From contig QZKW01000089.1 in NCBI GenBank assembly GCA_003599885.1, forward strand, positions 1 to 64,000: a DNA stretch of 64,000 nucleotides. The letters run 5' to 3'. This document shows positions 6,172-13,105 of the stretch, in pieces (positions within the stretch are counted from its first letter, which is position 1; every line of letters begins with the position of its first letter). Origin of the DNA: Desulfobacteraceae bacterium (GTDB lineage Bacteria > Desulfobacterota > Desulfobacteria > Desulfobacterales > Desulfosalsimonadaceae). The position numbers and the translations under genes were made by a program. The notes beneath the pieces were generated by a model. That model was not told the DNA's origin, did no database searches, and saw nothing but the letters and a program-made list of their open reading frames with translations.

Positions 6172-7131
6172 TTATGTTTTTCCGCCTTCGCCAGTCATTG
6201 TCCGGACATATTCCTCAACCGCTTCTTTCGTCGTCATCCAGTTTCTGTTGAATTTTACAGCCGACAACCGGCCCTGCCGCGCCAAAAACGATAAATACTC
6301 CTGGGAATAATCACAATACCGGGTTGCTTCTTTCAGGGTGATGTAGCCCTGTTTTTCGCTTTTTTTAAAATCCGCCGGTGCCAGTGCGTTCAGATAGATG
6401 ATTAATGACCTTTCAACCGATTTCCCGATAAAGTCTGTAAATCCGTCATACTTTCCCATATCCGCTTCTTTTAATACCCGGTAATATTTTTTGCGATCCA
6501 CATTCATGATGACGGCGGGCGGAAAGCCGTTTTTCATCAACACCAGGTTCATTAAAATTCTGGCGGTGCGGCCGTTTCCATCCATAAAAGGATGAATATG
6601 GACGGTTTTGTAATGAATGGCAGCCGCTAATTCAGGCACTGACAAAGCATTCAGGTGCTGATAATACCATTCGATGAGTTCATCCATCAGCCGCGGAATT
6701 TTCCCCGCATCCGGGGGAAGATGCACGGCGCCCATAATTCGGACATTGTGGTCTCTGAATTTTCCCGCTTCCGTCTCATCAATATTTTTAAAAATCGTTT
6801 CATGAATATTTAAAATCAAATCAATGCTGATATCCTGTTTGTTCTGGATATAGTTTTTTAGCTGGGTTATGGCTTTTTTGTGATTGATGGCTTCAAAATG
6901 CTCCGCCAGTGATTTTCCACCCACGGTTAACCCCCGGTTGATCACCAGTTCCGTTTCCTGAAGAGAGAGGGTGTTCCCTTCAATGGCGTTTGAGTTATAG
7001 GTCCACTCCAGCGTAAATTGCTCATCTAATTTTCTCACAACAGCGGAAGGAAACGGCCGGAACCGGTCAATTTCTCTCTTTTTTCCTGTAATGCTGTTCA
7101 TCAAACCGTCATTCATTCGGATATTATTCAT
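6172..7131 (-). CDS. Fic family protein (AMP-transferase), class II autoinhibited type
   Basis: A protein of 319 residues. The Fic core motif HPFMDGNGRTAR carries the catalytic His and the phosphate-binding residues used to transfer AMP or another nucleotide monophosphate to hydroxyl side chains of target proteins. Before the core is an inhibitory helix with the S-x-x-x-E-G pattern (SNAIEG, about residue 43), which marks a class II protein whose activity is blocked in cis. The C-terminal 55 residues (ITLKEATRYCDYSQEYLS...) look like a small helix-turn-helix domain of the excisionase/MerR kind. AAGGAGA precedes the ATG. It converges with uup and is divergent from the cyclase gene. No antitoxin gene is adjacent; targets are unknown. 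Confidence 0.92.
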   Translation of the reverse strand: MNNIRMNDGLMNSITGKKREIDRFRPFPSAVVRKLDEQFTLEWTYNSNAIEGNTLSLQETELVINRGLTVGGKSLAEHFEAINHKKAITQLKNYIQNKQDISIDLILNIHETIFKNIDETEAGKFRDHNVRIMGAVHLPPDAGKIPRLMDELIEWYYQHLNALSVPELAAAIHYKTVHIHPFMDGNGRTARILMNLVLMKNGFPPAVIMNVDRKKYYRVLKEADMGKYDGFTDFIGKSVERSLIIYLNALAPADFKKSEKQGYITLKEATRYCDYSQEYLSFLARQGRLSAVKFNRNWMTTKEAVEEYVRTMTGEGGKT

Positions 7132-7257
7132 ATCGGTTTCTCCTTAATTGCTCCTATCCGATAATCTAATCCCAAAGACCGCAAACATCAAGACAAATGG
7201 GGGCAGGGCGCCAAAATTTTCTTGTTAAAAGCCGGTTGTTTATAGTATGTTCGGCCC

Positions 7258-8172
7258 ATGAATACCCAAACAGATACATTGGCCGTGCTTTTTGCGGATA
7301 TCGCCAAGAGCACCGCGATTTATGAAACCCTGGGCGACCAGCGCGCCCAGACCCTGATCGAATCCTGTCTGACCCTGCTTAAAAAAGTCACCGGAAAATT
7401 CAACGGGGTGGTGATCAAAACCATCGGTGACGAGCTGATGTGCACGTTCCCCACAGCCCGCGACGCTGTGAGCGCTGCAAAAGAAATGAACCAGACCCTG
7501 ACCCTTGCGTCTGTGGTGGATGACCCTGCCTGCCGGCCGCCCAATATTTATGTGGGCATCCACTATGGCCCGGTGATCCTGGAAAAAGGGGACGTGTTCG
7601 GCGATACCGTGAATGTGGCGGCCCGGATCGCCGGGTTTAAAAAACAGCGGCAGATTCTGATCAGCGAGCAAACGGCGGATGCGCTGCCCCCTGACCTGCG
7701 TTCAAGTGTCAAGTGCGTGGATCATACCACCATCAAAGGCAAAACCGGCGAATTCACGGTGTATGAATTTATATGGGAAGCCCAGGACCTCACCATCATT
7801 GTGAGCCAGCCCATGGAAAGCCTGTTTTCCAGGGAGCAGCCGGCGAAACTCGAACTGGTCTTCCATAGCCAGACCGTGACCATCGGCCCGGAAAAACACG
7901 GGGTCTCGCTGGGACGCCAAACCCATAACGATATTGTCATCGATACCCAATACGCTTCCCGGTCCCATGCCAGAATCGAATACCGCCGGGGGAAATTTTT
8001 TCTGATGGACCAAAGCTCCAACGGCACTTATATTCTTTATCCGGCAACCGGCGACACCTTTCACATCCGGCAGGAAGAAATCCAGCTCAACGGAAGCGGG
8101 ATCATCTGCCCTGGCCGTCAGCCGGAAGCCAACCGGCCGGATACGCTTTCTTTCAGGCTTCTCCAGGCTTAG
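7258..8172 (+). CDS. Class III adenylate/guanylate cyclase with C-terminal FHA domain
   Basis: A protein of 304 residues without membrane segments. The N-terminal roughly 170 residues are a class III cyclase homology domain: LFADIAKST holds the first metal-binding Asp, KTIGDELMCTFP the second, and GDTVNVAARI the conserved Asn/Arg region. The C-terminal part (about 205-300) is an FHA domain, which binds phosphothreonine peptides: VSLGRQTHNDIVI, RSHARI and DQSSNGTYI are the usual contact motifs. The enzyme probably makes cAMP under control of a Ser/Thr kinase, but substrate choice was not tested. No strong ribosome site is seen before ATG 7258. The end overlaps the convergent arsM gene by four bases. 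Confidence 0.9.
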   Translation: MNTQTDTLAVLFADIAKSTAIYETLGDQRAQTLIESCLTLLKKVTGKFNGVVIKTIGDELMCTFPTARDAVSAAKEMNQTLTLASVVDDPACRPPNIYVGIHYGPVILEKGDVFGDTVNVAARIAGFKKQRQILISEQTADALPPDLRSSVKCVDHTTIKGKTGEFTVYEFIWEAQDLTIIVSQPMESLFSREQPAKLELVFHSQTVTIGPEKHGVSLGRQTHNDIVIDTQYASRSHARIEYRRGKFFLMDQSSNGTYILYPATGDTFHIRQEEIQLNGSGIICPGRQPEANRPDTLSFRLLQA

Positions 8173-9497
8173 CCCCCCATCTGTTTGTCAGTAAAACCAT
8201 AAGCCGCGAGAATTTCATTTACCTTATTGTATGTTTCAAAAATCAGCGCACCGCAAATTTGCTTGCCTGCCGGAGTGCCCGCCTGATCACCCACGATATC
8301 CGTGCAGCTTGTGCCCTTAAATTTTGACGCGGTCTTTTGGCGAAACCATTCGCCCAGCTCCTGAAGCATCGGAAATAATTTTTCAGATTCAGCTTCATTG
8401 TCAGCGCCCTTGCCTCCGTACCAGGCCAGAATGCTGGCCGCGCTTGTCATAACCCCGCACGTTTCATTAAAATTTGAGCAACCGAGACCCAGGCCGGACA
8501 TGGCGCGCACCAGACCGGGATTTTCGTGTCCCCTCTGCTCCAGGGCGAGGCTCATCATAATCTGGCTGCAATTGTATTTATTCCCCGCCAATTGGATCAT
8601 TCGATGGATGGTTTCGTCCTTTGACCGCTTCATCTTCTCTGCCGGTTTTTTTGCATAAAACTCGGCGCTCCAGACGTTTCCCACCGCGTTCATTGTCATC
8701 TGCTGGATGAGATCGTCGCGGTTCTGTGCCGGTTCGCCGGCGATCATTTCCTTCAGGCCGGGTATTTCCCCGGTTTCAAAAAATGACTGTATTTGAGATG
8801 CGTCATAGACAAACCGGTTTTTAACTTCCACGCGATTCATGCCCGCCTCGCGAAGTCCGGCCAGGTAGTCTTCCTCGCTGATGGCGCCGCCCACACAGGC
8901 GGCATATGCCTGAGTGTCCTGACGAAACCAGTCCGGCAGATTTTTTGCCACAATATCCGACACAAGCATTTGTCCGCCGGGTTTGAGCACCCGATGAATT
9001 TCCGAAAAAACACGCCCTTTTTCCGGTGAAAGGTTGATCACGCAATTGGAAATCACCCAGTCCACGGACCCGGATTCAACGGGCAGATTCTCAATTAGGC
9101 CGTACCGGACTTCCACGTTGGTCAATCCCTCTTTGCTGATATTCTCCCTTGCTTTTGCGATCATGGCTTCGGTCATATCCACGCCGATGATCCGCCCGGT
9201 CGGCCCGACTTTTCTGGCGGCCAGAATCAGGTCAAACCCCGCGCCGCTTCCGAGATCCAACACCGTATCGCCTTCTTTGACGCCGCTGAACGCCAGTGGA
9301 TTGCCGCAACCGAAAGAACTGGCGGCGGCATCGGAATTCAGCGGAAGGATATCAGCCGTTTCATATCCCGCCATGCCGATGATGGAACCTTTTTCTTTTT
9401 GGGGCGAGCAACCGCAGCCGCAGCCGCCGACAGTTGAACTGATTGCTTTTCCATAAGCCGTTGAAACCATTTCCCGGATTTGTTCATTCGGATTCAT
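8169..9497 (-). CDS. arsM: Arsenite S-adenosylmethionine methyltransferase fused to a C_GCAxxG_C_C domain
   Basis: A protein of 442 residues. Residues 1-285 are ArsM, which methylates As(III) with S-adenosylmethionine: VLDLGSGAGFD (79-89) binds the cofactor, and Cys64 (FGCGNP), Cys152 (SNCVINL) and Cys201 (AACVGG) match the three arsenic-binding cysteines of known ArsM; an N-terminal CGCGC cluster is also present. Residues about 296-436 form a second domain of the C_GCAxxG_C_C type, with Cys310, Cys340, Cys347, Cys398 and Cys415 in the expected pattern, thought to be a thiol redox module. ArsM proteins usually stop after the first domain. It is the last gene of an arsR-led operon, 17 bases after the membrane protein gene. 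Activity is inferred. Confidence 0.93.
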   Translation of the reverse strand: MNPNEQIREMVSTAYGKAISSTVGGCGCGCSPQKEKGSIIGMAGYETADILPLNSDAAASSFGCGNPLAFSGVKEGDTVLDLGSGAGFDLILAARKVGPTGRIIGVDMTEAMIAKARENISKEGLTNVEVRYGLIENLPVESGSVDWVISNCVINLSPEKGRVFSEIHRVLKPGGQMLVSDIVAKNLPDWFRQDTQAYAACVGGAISEEDYLAGLREAGMNRVEVKNRFVYDASQIQSFFETGEIPGLKEMIAGEPAQNRDDLIQQMTMNAVGNVWSAEFYAKKPAEKMKRSKDETIHRMIQLAGNKYNCSQIMMSLALEQRGHENPGLVRAMSGLGLGCSNFNETCGVMTSAASILAWYGGKGADNEAESEKLFPMLQELGEWFRQKTASKFKGTSCTDIVGDQAGTPAGKQICGALIFETYNKVNEILAAYGFTDKQMGG

Positions 9498-9514
9498 TTT
9501 GATTCTCCTTAAAT

Positions 9515-10309
9515 TTATTTTTTGGGTTGATTATTGACGTGACGCCAGGGACGCCACTTGTAAGGGATCAGCATGGGTACGTTGCGCTGGTAGTTCCGGT
9601 ATGCATCGCCAAAGGAAGCAACCAGGTCTCTTTCCTCAAGCATTGCGCCGACGATAATCCATACGGTCCAGAGCCCGTTAAACAGCAGCCGGTCCGTGGT
9701 CACGGAGACCGTGGCCCATATCAGCAGAAGGCTGAAGAAATACAAAGGATGCCGGACCAGTCGGTAATTCCCGCGCACCGTAAAGACGGGTTCCTTTGCC
9801 GTCCTGCCCTTTAAATGGATGACAATTTCCCGGATGCCGAGGGGGTCAAACGGCCGCAGGGACCGGAAGGTGACATAGAAACCGATAATGGAGAGGAAGA
9901 ACAGGACGCGCATGAAAAAATAAGCCATTCCATCCAGATCAACCTGGAAGGAGGTGGATTTTTGCCAGAAAAGCATGAGTATCACTAAAAATATTCCGGA
10001 GAAAATCGAATAGATTGCGCCGAGGTAATCCTGGGGAATAAAACCGGATAACCATTTGCGAAAGCCGTTGCGAACCATGAGGCTGTGTTGAAGGAAAAAA
10101 AGAAAACAAAGCAGGGCGTCGATAAAAAGATTCGTTTGTTCATTAAAGCCCAAAGCCATCTGACCCGGCAATCCGGTATAAAGGAAAACACCGAAAAGAA
10201 TCGCGGAAACGCCTCCCAGTAAACCGGAAAGCGCCATCACCCCGTAAGAGGGGACACAGACTTTTGACATGCATGAAGTGTTGACTGGAAGTTGGTTTTC
10301 ATTTTTCAT
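9515..10309 (-). CDS. MddA/NnrU-like membrane methyltransferase family protein
   Basis: A membrane protein of 264 residues with about six hydrophobic segments. It carries LQHSLMVR in the first half and, near the C-terminus, YRLVRHPLY, WATVSVTTDRLLF, LEERDLVASFGDAYRNYQ and VPMLIP. This arrangement matches from memory the MddA (methanethiol S-methyltransferase) branch of the NnrU/isoprenylcysteine-methyltransferase superfamily, where the RHPxY...EERD motifs bind S-adenosylmethionine. It sits between arsR and arsM in one operon, with AGGAGCG before the ATG. A thiol, sulfide, selenide or arsenic-thiol substrate is plausible; the substrate is not shown by sequence. An alternative is an uncharacterised ICMT-like protein of other function. 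Confidence 0.72.
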   Translation of the reverse strand: MKNENQLPVNTSCMSKVCVPSYGVMALSGLLGGVSAILFGVFLYTGLPGQMALGFNEQTNLFIDALLCFLFFLQHSLMVRNGFRKWLSGFIPQDYLGAIYSIFSGIFLVILMLFWQKSTSFQVDLDGMAYFFMRVLFFLSIIGFYVTFRSLRPFDPLGIREIVIHLKGRTAKEPVFTVRGNYRLVRHPLYFFSLLLIWATVSVTTDRLLFNGLWTVWIIVGAMLEERDLVASFGDAYRNYQRNVPMLIPYKWRPWRHVNNQPKK

Positions 10310-10336
10310 GGCTCGCTCCTTTCTTTAGTGTAAAGA

Positions 10337-10355
10337 TGCACATTTATGCATATAT
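10337..10355. promoter_or_regulatory. Putative ArsR operator, copy 1
   Basis: TGCA-N6-TGCATATAT lies between arsR and the membrane methyltransferase gene. The same TGCA-N6-TGCAT-R-TAT arrangement recurs inside the arsR promoter on the opposite strand. Shared spacing and position in the operon suggest a regulator-binding site; binding by the encoded ArsR is inferred. Confidence 0.45.
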
Positions 10356-10389
10356 TTGGTTAAAAAATTTTCAGGTTTTTGTTCGGGCG

Positions 10390-10752
10390 CTACTTAGAAC
10401 AGCAATCCGGCGGGCAGCACACCGAAATGCTTTTCTTGATTTGCGTCAGAAACTTTTCAAGTTTATCGATAAATGCCTGGGCGTTAATGCTGTAATACAT
10501 GTGCCGGGTTTCCTTTTCACAACACAACATGCCGACCTCCTGCATTTGATTCAGATGCCGTGAAACAACCGACCGGTCCTGGGGCATATTCTCCGTAATG
10601 GATGCGATGTCAGACCGTCCGTTCTTCATCAGATAAGATAGGATCTGAATGCGGACCGGTTCCCCCAGGGTTTTGAAAAACCGGGCATCATAGGCGTCGG
10701 AAAATTCTTTCAGAATTTCATCTCGGGTTTTTATGTGGGTTTGTATTTCCAT
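10390..10752 (-). CDS. arsR: ArsR family transcriptional repressor
   Basis: A winged helix-turn-helix protein of 120 residues with FFKTLGEPVRIQILSYL and the recognition region SITENMPQDRSVVSRHLNQM. ArsR repressors leave DNA when As(III) or another metal binds cysteines. The classical CVC motif of helix 3 is missing; cysteines occur instead as MLCCE in the wing region and as CCPPDCC at the very C-terminus, so the sensing site would be of an atypical type. The start was placed at 10752 rather than 10782, because the longer ORF would run through the -10 region. The new start has no Shine-Dalgarno sequence and lies almost at the predicted transcription start. It heads the operon with the MddA-like and arsM genes. 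Confidence 0.9.
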   Translation of the reverse strand: MEIQTHIKTRDEILKEFSDAYDARFFKTLGEPVRIQILSYLMKNGRSDIASITENMPQDRSVVSRHLNQMQEVGMLCCEKETRHMYYSINAQAFIDKLEKFLTQIKKSISVCCPPDCCSK

Positions 10753-10759
10753 GGTTATG

Positions 10760-10789
10760 CTTATACATGCACACAAATGCACGTGTCAA
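10760..10789 (-). promoter_or_regulatory. Sigma-70-type promoter of the arsR operon
   Basis: On the minus strand TTGACA (10789-10784) is followed after 18 bases by TATAAG (10765-10760). The predicted transcription start falls within a few bases of the arsR ATG at 10752, which suggests a leaderless or nearly leaderless message. An operator-like site overlaps the spacer and the -10. Confidence 0.72.
10763..10781 (-). promoter_or_regulatory. Putative ArsR operator, copy 2 (within the promoter)
   Basis: On the minus strand TGCA-N6-TGCATGTAT lies between and overlapping the promoter boxes, where a repressor would block RNA polymerase. It matches copy 1 in both half-sites and spacing. Confidence 0.5.
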
Positions 10790-11029
10790 GAAAAAAATGC
10801 ATAATTTTTAAAACAATTATTTCTTGAATTTTTTTGTGAAAATTCGGAATGGTACATGAAACCCTTGTTAATCATAAATATATTGTGTAAACAGGTATAT
10901 ACATTTCTCAGGATATTTGTTGCCGATTACAGATTTTCCGGTTAACCGGTTAGAGTGAAATAGGCCTTTCCGGTTATAGGAGATATCCAGAAACTTTTGA
11001 ATCACTTGTTGGACCGAAGGAACGAGTAT

Positions 11030-12049
11030 ATGAAAGGCCATCTGCTTCACAATGATCTGAGTCGCCTACTTAGATATAGAGACTCCATTTATGCTTCGGA
11101 TTTGCTGGTATGTGCGATCGCTTACTTCGATTTCTTTACATTTTTGAACAAATGTCCAAAGACATTTGATGAGATTTGCAACAAATTACGAATCCAGCCG
11201 CGACCGGCAGATGTCCTGCTGTCGCTTCTTGTGTCCATGGAATTGGTTGAAACATGTGAGCAAAAATATGGTTTGACCGAATTGTCTGCCACATACCTTG
11301 TTAGCGACAAACCCGGTAGCCTGGTTCCTTATTATTGTTCTCTCAAGAACCGACCTCAGTGTGTGGAATTTCGTGAGATCCTCCAAACCGGAAAGCCTGC
11401 CGGATGGTCTAGTAAGAAAGATGGCAAGGACTGGATGAAAAGCATGCAAGACCAAGAATTTGCAGATACCTTCACGGCTGCCATGGATAGTCGTGGCGTT
11501 TTTCTTGCTCAGAGGCTTGCAGAGAGATTCAACCTCAGTCAGCACACCGCTCTTTTGGACATTGCCGGTGGATCAGGTACATACGCTTGTTCCATTGCGC
11601 AAATAAATAGTCATCTTGCTGCTACTGTCCTTGAGTTACCACCTGTAGACCTTGCAACGAAACGCTCAATTGAGTCAAAGGGCATGTCGTCACAAGTTAA
11701 CGTTGTTGCTGGAAATATGTTTGAAGAACTTCCCACCGGCTATGACGTCCATTTGTTTGCTAACGCTTTCCATGATTGGGATATAGATTCCGTGGAAAAA
11801 CTAACCGCTAATTCTTTCAGGAGTCTGACTTCAGGCGGACTTATTGCGATTTTTGACGCCCATTTGAACCAATTCAAAAACGGCCCTCTTTCCGTTGCCG
11901 AATATTCTTGTCTCTTGATGCATTCGACAGAAGGCAAATGCTATTCAATAACAGAAATAAGCGACATTTTTACGTCTATTGGTTTTGGCCAAATTGTAGT
12001 CACAAATGTGGCTGCGGATAGGACCTTAATTACTGGAAAGAAAGATTAA
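11030..12049 (+). CDS. SAM-dependent O-methyltransferase, acetylserotonin-OMT-like (Methyltransf_2 type)
   Basis: A protein of 339 residues. The N-terminal part is a winged-helix dimerisation domain (FDEICNKLRIQPRPADVLLSLL). The C-terminal part is a Rossmann methyltransferase with LLDIAGGSGTYACSIA for S-adenosylmethionine, and AFHDWD, which holds the catalytic His of this O-methyltransferase family. The start at 11030 was preferred to 10997 because GGAACGAG lies before it. The gene is visibly AT-richer than its surroundings and its codon use differs, suggesting recent acquisition. A CCGGTTAACCGG palindrome (10938-10949) lies in the upstream region. Substrates of such enzymes are small aromatics or polyketides; nothing here reveals the substrate. 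Confidence 0.86.
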   Translation: MKGHLLHNDLSRLLRYRDSIYASDLLVCAIAYFDFFTFLNKCPKTFDEICNKLRIQPRPADVLLSLLVSMELVETCEQKYGLTELSATYLVSDKPGSLVPYYCSLKNRPQCVEFREILQTGKPAGWSSKKDGKDWMKSMQDQEFADTFTAAMDSRGVFLAQRLAERFNLSQHTALLDIAGGSGTYACSIAQINSHLAATVLELPPVDLATKRSIESKGMSSQVNVVAGNMFEELPTGYDVHLFANAFHDWDIDSVEKLTANSFRSLTSGGLIAIFDAHLNQFKNGPLSVAEYSCLLMHSTEGKCYSITEISDIFTSIGFGQIVVTNVAADRTLITGKKD

Positions 12050-12508: not shown

Positions 12509-13105
12509 ATGCTAACCTTTGAAGAGGGACAAGTAAAAGTGGCCGATGGAAAAAATCGCGTTTGCCCGGTTGAAAGAGCCGGCAGGCTTGACAGCCGGGT
12601 CCGGAGATGGTTTCAGAATCCCCGGAAAATATTGAAGCCGCATATTAAAAAAGGAATGACGGTCCTGGATATGGGATGCGGGCCGGGCTTTTTTTCTGTT
12701 GAAATGGCTGAAATGGTTGGTAAATCAGGCCGGGTGATTGCGGTTGATTTGCAGGAGGGGATGCTCCGGAAATTAGGAGACAAGATTAAAGGAACAGAAT
12801 TTGAGAAACGAATCTTGCTGGTTAAATGTGAAAAGGGCAAAATAGGCGTTTCGGAACCTGTTGATTTTGTTCTGGCATTTTATATGCTTCACGAGATTCC
12901 CAATCAGGATAAATTTTTCAAAGAGATCCGATCAATCCTGAAACCGAACGGACAAATTTTCATCGTGGAACCGCCAATCCATGTTTCAAAGACGGCATTT
13001 GAAGAAACTGTCGGAAAAGCCGTGGCTGCAGGTTTTACTCCTTTAGAGAGACCGAAGGTGTTTCTCAACAAAGCAGTGCTTTTGAGTAATAAAGTGAGAA
13101 TTTGA
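12509..13105 (+). CDS. Class I SAM-dependent methyltransferase
   Basis: A cytoplasmic protein of 198 residues. After CPVERAGRLDSRVRRWFQNP comes the cofactor site TVLDMGCGPGFFSVEMA (about 50-66), then VIAVDLQEGML and the later strands FVLAFYMLHEIP and IFIVEPP, all standard for methyltransferases of the Methyltransf_11/25 kind. The start lies two bases after the stop of the preceding gene, with no ribosome site of its own, so translation is probably coupled. The substrate is unknown. Composition is AT-richer than the flanking core genes. Confidence 0.86.
   Translation: MLTFEEGQVKVADGKNRVCPVERAGRLDSRVRRWFQNPRKILKPHIKKGMTVLDMGCGPGFFSVEMAEMVGKSGRVIAVDLQEGMLRKLGDKIKGTEFEKRILLVKCEKGKIGVSEPVDFVLAFYMLHEIPNQDKFFKEIRSILKPNGQIFIVEPPIHVSKTAFEETVGKAVAAGFTPLERPKVFLNKAVLLSNKVRI

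Follow-up and report, generated by a model that had tools for sequence, protein, structure and literature searches.

What does a membrane methyltransferase do between the gene for an ArsR-type repressor and the gene for an arsenic methyltransferase? The question is raised by an operon on contig QZKW01000089.1 of a Desulfobacteraceae genome (assembly GCA_003599885.1), within a stretch of 64,000 nucleotides that was analysed as a whole and is called the window here. Three open reading frames (ORFs) were confirmed on its minus strand at 8169–10789: arsR, a gene for a membrane methyltransferase that we name MddL, and an arsM fused to a DVU_1555-type C_GCAxxG_C_C domain. An earlier reading made from the letters alone (the sequence-only reading) had placed the same genes and families here and proposed an arsenic or thiol methylation unit. 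It overlooked a second operator before MddL and the repeated association of MddL with hgcAB and with acr3/arsC operons, an association that shifts the question from arsenic and thiols to what arsenic and mercury methylation share. Recurrence beside arsenic resistance and methylmercury genes suggests that MddL takes part in a shared, as yet undescribed step in the handling of both poisons.

MddL relatives beside mercury and arsenic genes

Named species genomes were scanned with a 15-row MddL alignment, which gave 119 relatives; the best 80 were kept (L033–L112). Neighbours within 5 kb of MddL in these 80 loci were clustered and then checked by tblastn and with NCBIfam models. Several contigs stop less than 5 kb from MddL, and a missing neighbour there is therefore no proof of absence.

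Seven of the 80 loci carry hgcA beside the MddL relative (L045, L048, L072, L093, L096, L100, and L105). The order is MarR-hgcA-hgcB-MddL in L045, L048, L072, L096, and L105, and hgcBA is convergent in L100. HgcA exceeded its cut-off of 275 bits in L048 (459.6), L105 (471.0), L093 (410.2), and L100 (423.8), and identity to L048 is 68% for L045, 81% for L072, and 76% for L096. In L093, HgcB (100.1 bits; cut-off, 99) and MddL (150 bits on the MddA model) are encoded in that order by a single ORF of 384 amino acids and form a natural fusion. Outside the 80 loci, a more distant MddL relative lies between hgcA (407.7 bits) and hgcB in L174 (genome G213); it has 33% identity and scores 116.9 bits with the MddA model. 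A further candidate, L110, was not counted as an hgcA link because its HgcA-like and HgcB proteins scored 166.2 and 85 bits, below the cut-offs of 275 and 99. Also left uncounted as links were L088 (an ArsR-like protein, 31%), L068 (an ArsR-like protein 4.7 kb away), and L046 (a ferredoxin resembling HgcB). Separately, another short ICMT-like membrane methyltransferase of 183 amino acids, about 29% identical to the MddL of L048 over part of its length, is encoded just upstream of MarR-hgcA-hgcB in genome G435 (L146, 183–734, plus strand).

Arsenic genes form the second setting. The order arsR-permease-arsC-acr3-MddL occurs in L042, L047, and L059 and, in a looser form, in L049; Acr3 scored 443.8 bits in L042 and 453.2 bits in L047 (cut-off, 282.8), and the ArsC of L042 fell below its own cut-off. 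An arsM gene directly precedes MddL in L056 (342.3 bits; cut-off, 263) and in L062, which is 84% identical to L056, and the MarR proteins beside hgcAB fall into one cluster with that of L056. In L106 a DVU_1555 protein (156.7 bits; cut-off, 103) stands directly before MddL, without ArsM. Altogether, 14 of the 71 loci that are not orthologous to the window have such a neighbour: 7 with hgcA, 4 with acr3/ars genes, 2 with arsM, and 1 with DVU_1555.

Frequency and independence of the links

To gauge frequency without selection by gene context, 395 genomes were sampled evenly across the phylum. In 19 of them the MddL alignment had 21 matches, one of which (G173, contig C146) is a true MddA. Two of the 21 adjoin hgcA (G340 and G213), one is the window itself, one has ArsM about 1.3 kb away (G286, 333.0 bits), and one stands next to a C_GCAxxG_C_C gene (G401), in a count for which some contigs end too near the match to judge. 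The gene in G401 (L212, 4961–6430, minus strand) lies directly before MddL and, as in L106, no ArsM was found there. Beside the true MddA of G173 is a 27% match to the ArsM query (L181, 5661–6173, minus strand) that is probably a general methyltransferase.

In the family to which G340 belongs, 35 of 51 genomes carry hgcA and 17 of 51 match the MddL model, with the two genes side by side in 6. Those six are all the hgcA-bearing members of one genus of seven genomes, and each has the order hgcA-hgcB-MddL. Five of the six genomes probably represent loci already counted, because the identities are equal, and they therefore provide no additional evidence.

On the protein tree described below, the hgc label (nine rows, with L110 and L174 included) requires five changes, all five forced by starred branches; four are needed without L110 and three without L110 and L174. 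The acr3 and arsM labels require two changes each, and merging every arsenic and mercury label into a single one brings the number to 11. By this count, the link between hgcA and MddL arose about three to five times. A rough hand estimate, which ignores how the loci were chosen, gives about 0.06 hgcA neighbours expected by chance in the 71 loci against 7 seen, with a Poisson tail of 6e-9 for five gains.

Identity of the membrane methyltransferase

MddL (9515–10309, minus strand; 264 amino acids) is, by its sequence, an integral-membrane methyltransferase and a relative of MddA, though not MddA itself. Its score against the MddA model (NF045656) was 139.6 bits, below the equivalog cut-off of 270, and MddA was its best match by more than 100 bits over the LmtA or ICMT models. 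The NnrU model (PF07298) gave 30.1 bits, above the gathering cut-off of 24.7 and much weaker than the MddA match; NF040696 was matched at E = 3.1e-5, far below its cut-off, and the sequence of 4a2n at E = 0.014. H75, R80, W115, G158, the R186-H187-P188 motif, E226, Y237, and Y240 of MddL are common to all four MddA rows of the alignment. MddL has invariant residues of its own: Q116, D206, and W217 are present in 86 of 86 MddL rows and N211 in 84 of 86, a count that leaves out L174, L186, and L187, whereas opposite Q116, D206, N211, and W217 the four MddA rows carry R (in 3 of the 4), G, A, and Y, respectively.

A careful IQ-TREE analysis of 99 proteins, in which the bootstrap had not fully settled, placed the MddL of the window in an arsR clade (98/99), the four MddA rows in a clade of their own (100/99), and six ICMT-like rows in another (100/100). 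The membrane protein had been called MddA-like at the outset. The relationship to MddA is borne out by the tree, where the protein groups apart from the ICMT-like clade, but equating it with MddA itself is ruled out by the cut-off, the separate clade, and the invariant residues. ICMT or NnrU proper was likewise rejected on much weaker scores, with the ICMT-like rows again in a separate clade. Two weak matches (less than 36% identity) were found in a plasmid collection, and no close MddL.

An AlphaFold2 model built on an 80-row alignment had a predicted local distance difference test (pLDDT) score of 90.1 and a predicted template modelling (pTM) score of 0.85. Foldseek returned no match to it at E ≤ 0.001. 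A second structural comparison found Ma-ICMT (4a2n) at Z 7.5, with a root-mean-square deviation of 2.2 over 119 residues and 23% identity, and eukaryotic ICMT at Z 7.5 amid steroid and sterol reductases at Z 7.4–8.1; the tool warns that a Z score below 8 may mean a mere common arrangement, and residues before about position 40 were barely covered. An ICMT-like fold is therefore predicted for the C-terminal half of MddL, and the sequence points the same way. That half is the one we take to bind S-adenosylmethionine (SAM).

The arsR-MddL pair and its separable partner

Nine orthologous loci, with MddL 65–80% identical, were found among the best 80 of the 119 relatives. Because the layout is kept in these loci and pairwise ratios of nonsynonymous to synonymous substitution (dN/dS) are low (0.06–0.34 for the window against its orthologs in four segments), the three-gene arrangement is more than chance, and the neighbourhood, for which a wider search had been proposed, is not confined to the host. 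The arsR gene lies upstream of MddL in 8 of the 9 loci, and the ninth contig begins at MddL. The ArsM core is present in six loci and missing from L035, L040, and L041, with MddL kept in all, so that the idea of ArsM as a fixed part of the unit has to be given up. In L041, an open frame of 240 amino acids joins the ArsM N terminus to the C_GCAxxG_C_C domain; in L040, the domain is kept with a short ArsM remnant; and in L035, only a 46-base ArsM remnant is left. Downstream of the arsR-MddL pair in L035, ORFs that look transposase-like by eye occupy 6357–7420. ArsM and the C_GCAxxG_C_C domain are two adjacent genes in L034 and L036, and in G007, which has ArsM, no such domain was found. With the ArsM core lost in three of nine loci and the domain split or absent elsewhere, arsR and MddL are, on sequence comparison, the stable pair, with ArsM and the thiol domain as separable modules. 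MddL is under purifying selection, with dN/dS of 0.20–0.34 against the window; between L035 and L041, both without an ArsM core, dN/dS is 0.31–0.39 and the frame stays open.

In the window, arsM with its fused domain spans 8169–9497 (minus strand; 442 amino acids). The ArsM part (8763–9497, minus strand; residues 1–245) has an N-terminal CGCGC motif. Its residues C64, C152, and C201 are aligned with cysteines in 4kw7, an arsenic methyltransferase chain, and are presumably the three conserved As(III)-binding cysteines. The C-terminal domain of the DVU_1555 family (8196–8609, minus strand; residues 297–434) contains C310, C340, C347, C398, and C415. The sequence-only reading had described an ArsM with an added thiol domain, and the family models agree: ArsM scored 283.1 bits against PRK11873 (NF008823; curated cut-off, 263), and the C-terminal domain scored 156.4 bits against NF045669 (DVU_1555 family; cut-off, 103) and 72.3 bits against PF09719 (cut-off, 27).

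Promoter, candidate operators, and the probable arsenic switch

The arsR gene (10390–10752, minus strand) encodes a winged-helix repressor of 120 amino acids with a C-terminal CC-PPD-CC motif. Its ORF (10390–10782) opens at GTG 10782, which falls within the promoter, so the likely start is ATG 10752. The protein passed the HTH_5 model (28.4 bits; cut-off, 22) and narrowly missed NF033788 (54.2 bits; cut-off, 55). C78, C112, C113, and C118 are invariant in a nine-row alignment, and C117 is serine in one row. C112/C113/C118 resembles, with different spacing, the C-terminal type 2 As(III) site of ArsR proteins formed by Cys95/Cys96/Cys102 (PMC11868830). From this likeness and the invariance of the three residues and C78, arsenic sensing is likely.

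The near-consensus promoter reported before arsR can be read directly from the sequence (10760–10789, minus strand): TTGACA at 10789–10784, an 18-nucleotide spacer, and TATAAG at 10765–10760, with similar elements in the orthologs. A consensus promoter scan did not list it because the scanner requires T at the last position. Between TATAAG and the arsR ATG are only 7 bases (6–7 in the orthologs read), and the arsR transcript may therefore be leaderless. Two terminator-like matches were found (3.8 expected), neither of them downstream of arsM.

Two candidate operators were found: operator 1, TGCATTTGTGTGCAT (10767–10781, minus strand), within the spacer of the arsR promoter, and operator 2, TGCATAAATGTGCAT (10336–10350, minus strand), between arsR and MddL. 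The pattern TGCATN3TGTGCAT has exactly two sites in the 4,510,827-base genome, and these are operators 1 and 2. With one mismatch allowed there are 18 sites genome-wide in all, against 1 for the backwards control. Conservation was examined in nine regions, the window included and L037 and L039 left out. Operator 1 is exact (TGCATN3T[GA]TGCAT) in 7 of 9 upstream regions and variant in L036 and L041, and it is kept although the DNA farther upstream diverges among the orthologs; for operator 2, the match is exact in 6 of the 9 stretches between arsR and MddL, with one mismatch in L034 and L038 and an altered site in L040. A regulon beyond the operon was considered and set aside with the exact pattern confined to the two local sites, the 16 one-mismatch sites not having been checked singly. 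Together, the two candidate operators and the ArsR cysteines make it likely, from sequence features, that arsenic controls the operon.

Proposed function and alternatives

The membrane enzyme MddA uses H2S and methanethiol (MeSH) as methyl acceptors, and transcription of mddA is raised by H2S and/or MeSH (PMC12904073). We tentatively favour, at somewhat short of an even chance, a reading in which MddL, in the membrane, would use SAM to S-methylate sulfide or the sulfur ligands of methylated or thiolated metal(loid)s, as part of an arsenic-switched operon. ArsR would sit on the two operators and be released when trivalent arsenic binds its C-terminal cysteines. ArsM would then methylate As(III) on its three conserved cysteines, as is known for the family, and the DVU_1555 domain would supply or hold thiols. 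MddL would S-methylate sulfide or metal(loid)-bound sulfur, presumably (CH3)2As-S(-) or the like and, in hgcAB operons, CH3Hg-S(-), by an action modelled on that of MddA (CH3-S(-) to CH3-S-CH3). The products would be neutral and membrane-permeant and would leave the cell. The common factor of the MddL settings is a thiophilic metal(loid), often methylated, for which the simplest shared chemistry would be S-methylation, the presumed direction of the reaction.

A wider version of this reading, which we regard as unlikely, makes MddL a common step of arsenic and mercury biomethylation: by S-methylating the sulfur ligand of dimethylarsenic sulfide or methylmercury sulfide, it would turn a charged thio-complex into a neutral volatile that exits through the membrane. 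If so, hgcAB bearers would have in MddL a dedicated way out of the cell for methylmercury.

Volatile forms of thio-arsenic and methylmercury exist; S-methylation of metal(loid)-bound sulfur by MddL, if it takes place, could explain them and alter how genomes are scored for methylators. MddL bears on the reasons for which hgcAB is retained and on the tie between mercury methylation and arsenic regulation, and its separate joining to arsM, acr3, and hgcAB, once by fusion to HgcB, makes it a concrete third component of the arsenic-mercury link.

Several observations weigh against the favoured reading. No hgcA was found in the host genome (NF040863, E ≤ 1e-50). HgcA exceeded its cut-off in 113 of the 395 phylum genomes, and MddL was near only 1 of the 30 best-scoring hgcA loci (flanks of about 1.5 kb); with so few adjacencies in the 395-genome sample as well, the hgcA-MddL arrangement is a minority one. 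The HgcB-MddL fusion was seen in one contig of one metagenome-assembled genome only. ArsM was not found near MddL in the acr3 operons, where a methylated arsenical is therefore no obvious substrate, and outside the clade of the window the ArsM-MddL link consists of the close pair L056/L062 plus L184 at about 1.3 kb. No hgcA, acr3, arsM, or DVU_1555 neighbour was present in 57 of the 80 loci, a number that includes L110 and some short contigs, and the family may therefore serve a general function that these operons merely recruit. The differences from MddA at Q116 (3 of 4 rows), D206, N211, and W217 imply that the substrate may differ from that of MddA. Finally, the HgcAB complex on its own already takes its methyl group from SAM (PMC11588087), and MddL would therefore act after mercury methylation and not in it.

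The strongest competitor, which we consider somewhat unlikely, would have MddL be a plain H2S/MeSH methyltransferase with the job of MddA, relieving thiol or sulfide upset under arsenic or mercury stress, with the metal(loid) never a substrate. The 139.6-bit match to the MddA model, the action of MddA on H2S and MeSH and the induction of mddA by one or both of them (PMC12904073), and the 57 loci without a metal(loid)-gene neighbour all fit this account, whereas the repeated and separately arisen placement among metal(loid) genes, the HgcB fusion included, and the MddL-specific invariant residues, mostly absent from the MddA rows, do not.

Improbable, in our judgement, is a role as a metal(loid) or corrinoid methyltransferase that adds a further methyl group to trivalent arsenic, yielding volatile arsines, and re-methylates the membrane corrinoid beside HgcA. 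MddL does share operons with ArsM and HgcAB, is fused to HgcB, and has the predicted ICMT-like fold in what is presumably its SAM-binding half. To our knowledge, however, SAM is unable to methylate mercury(II) directly. The arsR-MddL operons showed no recognisable corrinoid protein, and arsenic methylation would leave the orthologs without an ArsM core unexplained. Moreover, the ability of purified HgcAB to methylate its own corrinoid with SAM (PMC11588087) argues against a need for re-methylation.

Methylation of a membrane lipid or of a protein or prenyl thiol, changing the membrane under metal stress, seems quite improbable. ICMT and LmtA act on lipidic substrates, and MddL is tied to them by weak matches and by fold, but its MddA match is more than 100 bits stronger than either and on the tree the ICMT-like rows stand apart in a clade of their own (100/100). 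Least credible is an accidental or inherited neighbourhood without shared function, which accords with the 57 of 80 loci lacking such neighbours and with the 1 of 30 hgcA loci but is very improbable given the roughly 0.06 hgcA neighbours expected against 7 seen (the same rough estimate as above), the operators conserved before MddL, and the gene order shared by all six hgcA-bearing members of one genus.

Comparison with known systems

Like MddL, MddA is an integral-membrane ICMT-type protein with H75, R80, W115, the RHP motif, E226, Y237, and Y240 in common; the two differ in score (139.6 against 270), clade, and residues, and MddL relatives lie in arsenic and mercury operons. Operons of the arsRM type share an ArsR with an operator over its own promoter and a SAM-dependent PRK11873 ArsM, whereas here a membrane methyltransferase stands between arsR and arsM, there is a second operator, ArsM is fused to DVU_1555, and the ArsM core is missing in three of nine orthologous loci. 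The ArsM fusions NF041536 and NF041537 (with DUF2284 or AhpD, by their model names) also add a domain to ArsM; the domain added here is of the DVU_1555 C_GCAxxG_C_C type, and at other loci it has a gene of its own or, in the absence of ArsM, lies next to MddL.

As here, hgcAB operons with ArsR or MarR regulators hold metal-regulated methylation genes. The presence of arsR, acr3, arsC, and arsM next to hgcAB has been reported (PMC7438021; PMC10349881), and hgcAB of strain ND132 is reported to be under the control of ArsR (cited in PMC10349881). What differs from these reports is an MddA-like membrane gene downstream of, inside, or fused to hgcAB, in a family whose member in the window belongs to a genome without hgcA. 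Our literature search found no paper on a membrane MddA-like gene beside, inside, or fused to hgcAB, and none joining arsM with mddA or hgcA with isoprenylcysteine or NnrU.

Host genome and neighbouring genes

MddL is a single-copy gene in the host genome at E ≤ 1e-6. As the sequence-only reading held, there is no ArsB, Acr3, or ArsC gene nearby: no ArsB was found in the genome at E ≤ 0.001, the single Acr3 is on another contig, and three matches to one ArsC model, the other ArsC types not having been searched, are all below cut-off and on other contigs. Its further claim, of methylation in place of efflux, fails for the genome as a whole, where an arsR-permease-acr3 cluster lies on contig C18 (L178, 3977–6886); no MddL was found beside this cluster. 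A second ArsM-like gene, about 41% identical to the ArsM of L056, is on contig C6 (L179, 3783–4355).

Two further SAM methyltransferases adjoin the operon in the window: an O-methyltransferase with a dimerisation domain (10997–12049, plus strand), divergent from arsR, and a class I methyltransferase (12509–13105, plus strand). On the other side, a guanylate-cyclase and FHA-domain gene (7258–8172, plus strand) converges on arsM so that the stop ends overlap by 4 bases, and a Fic-domain protein with a C-terminal helix-turn-helix match is encoded at 6172–7131 (minus strand).

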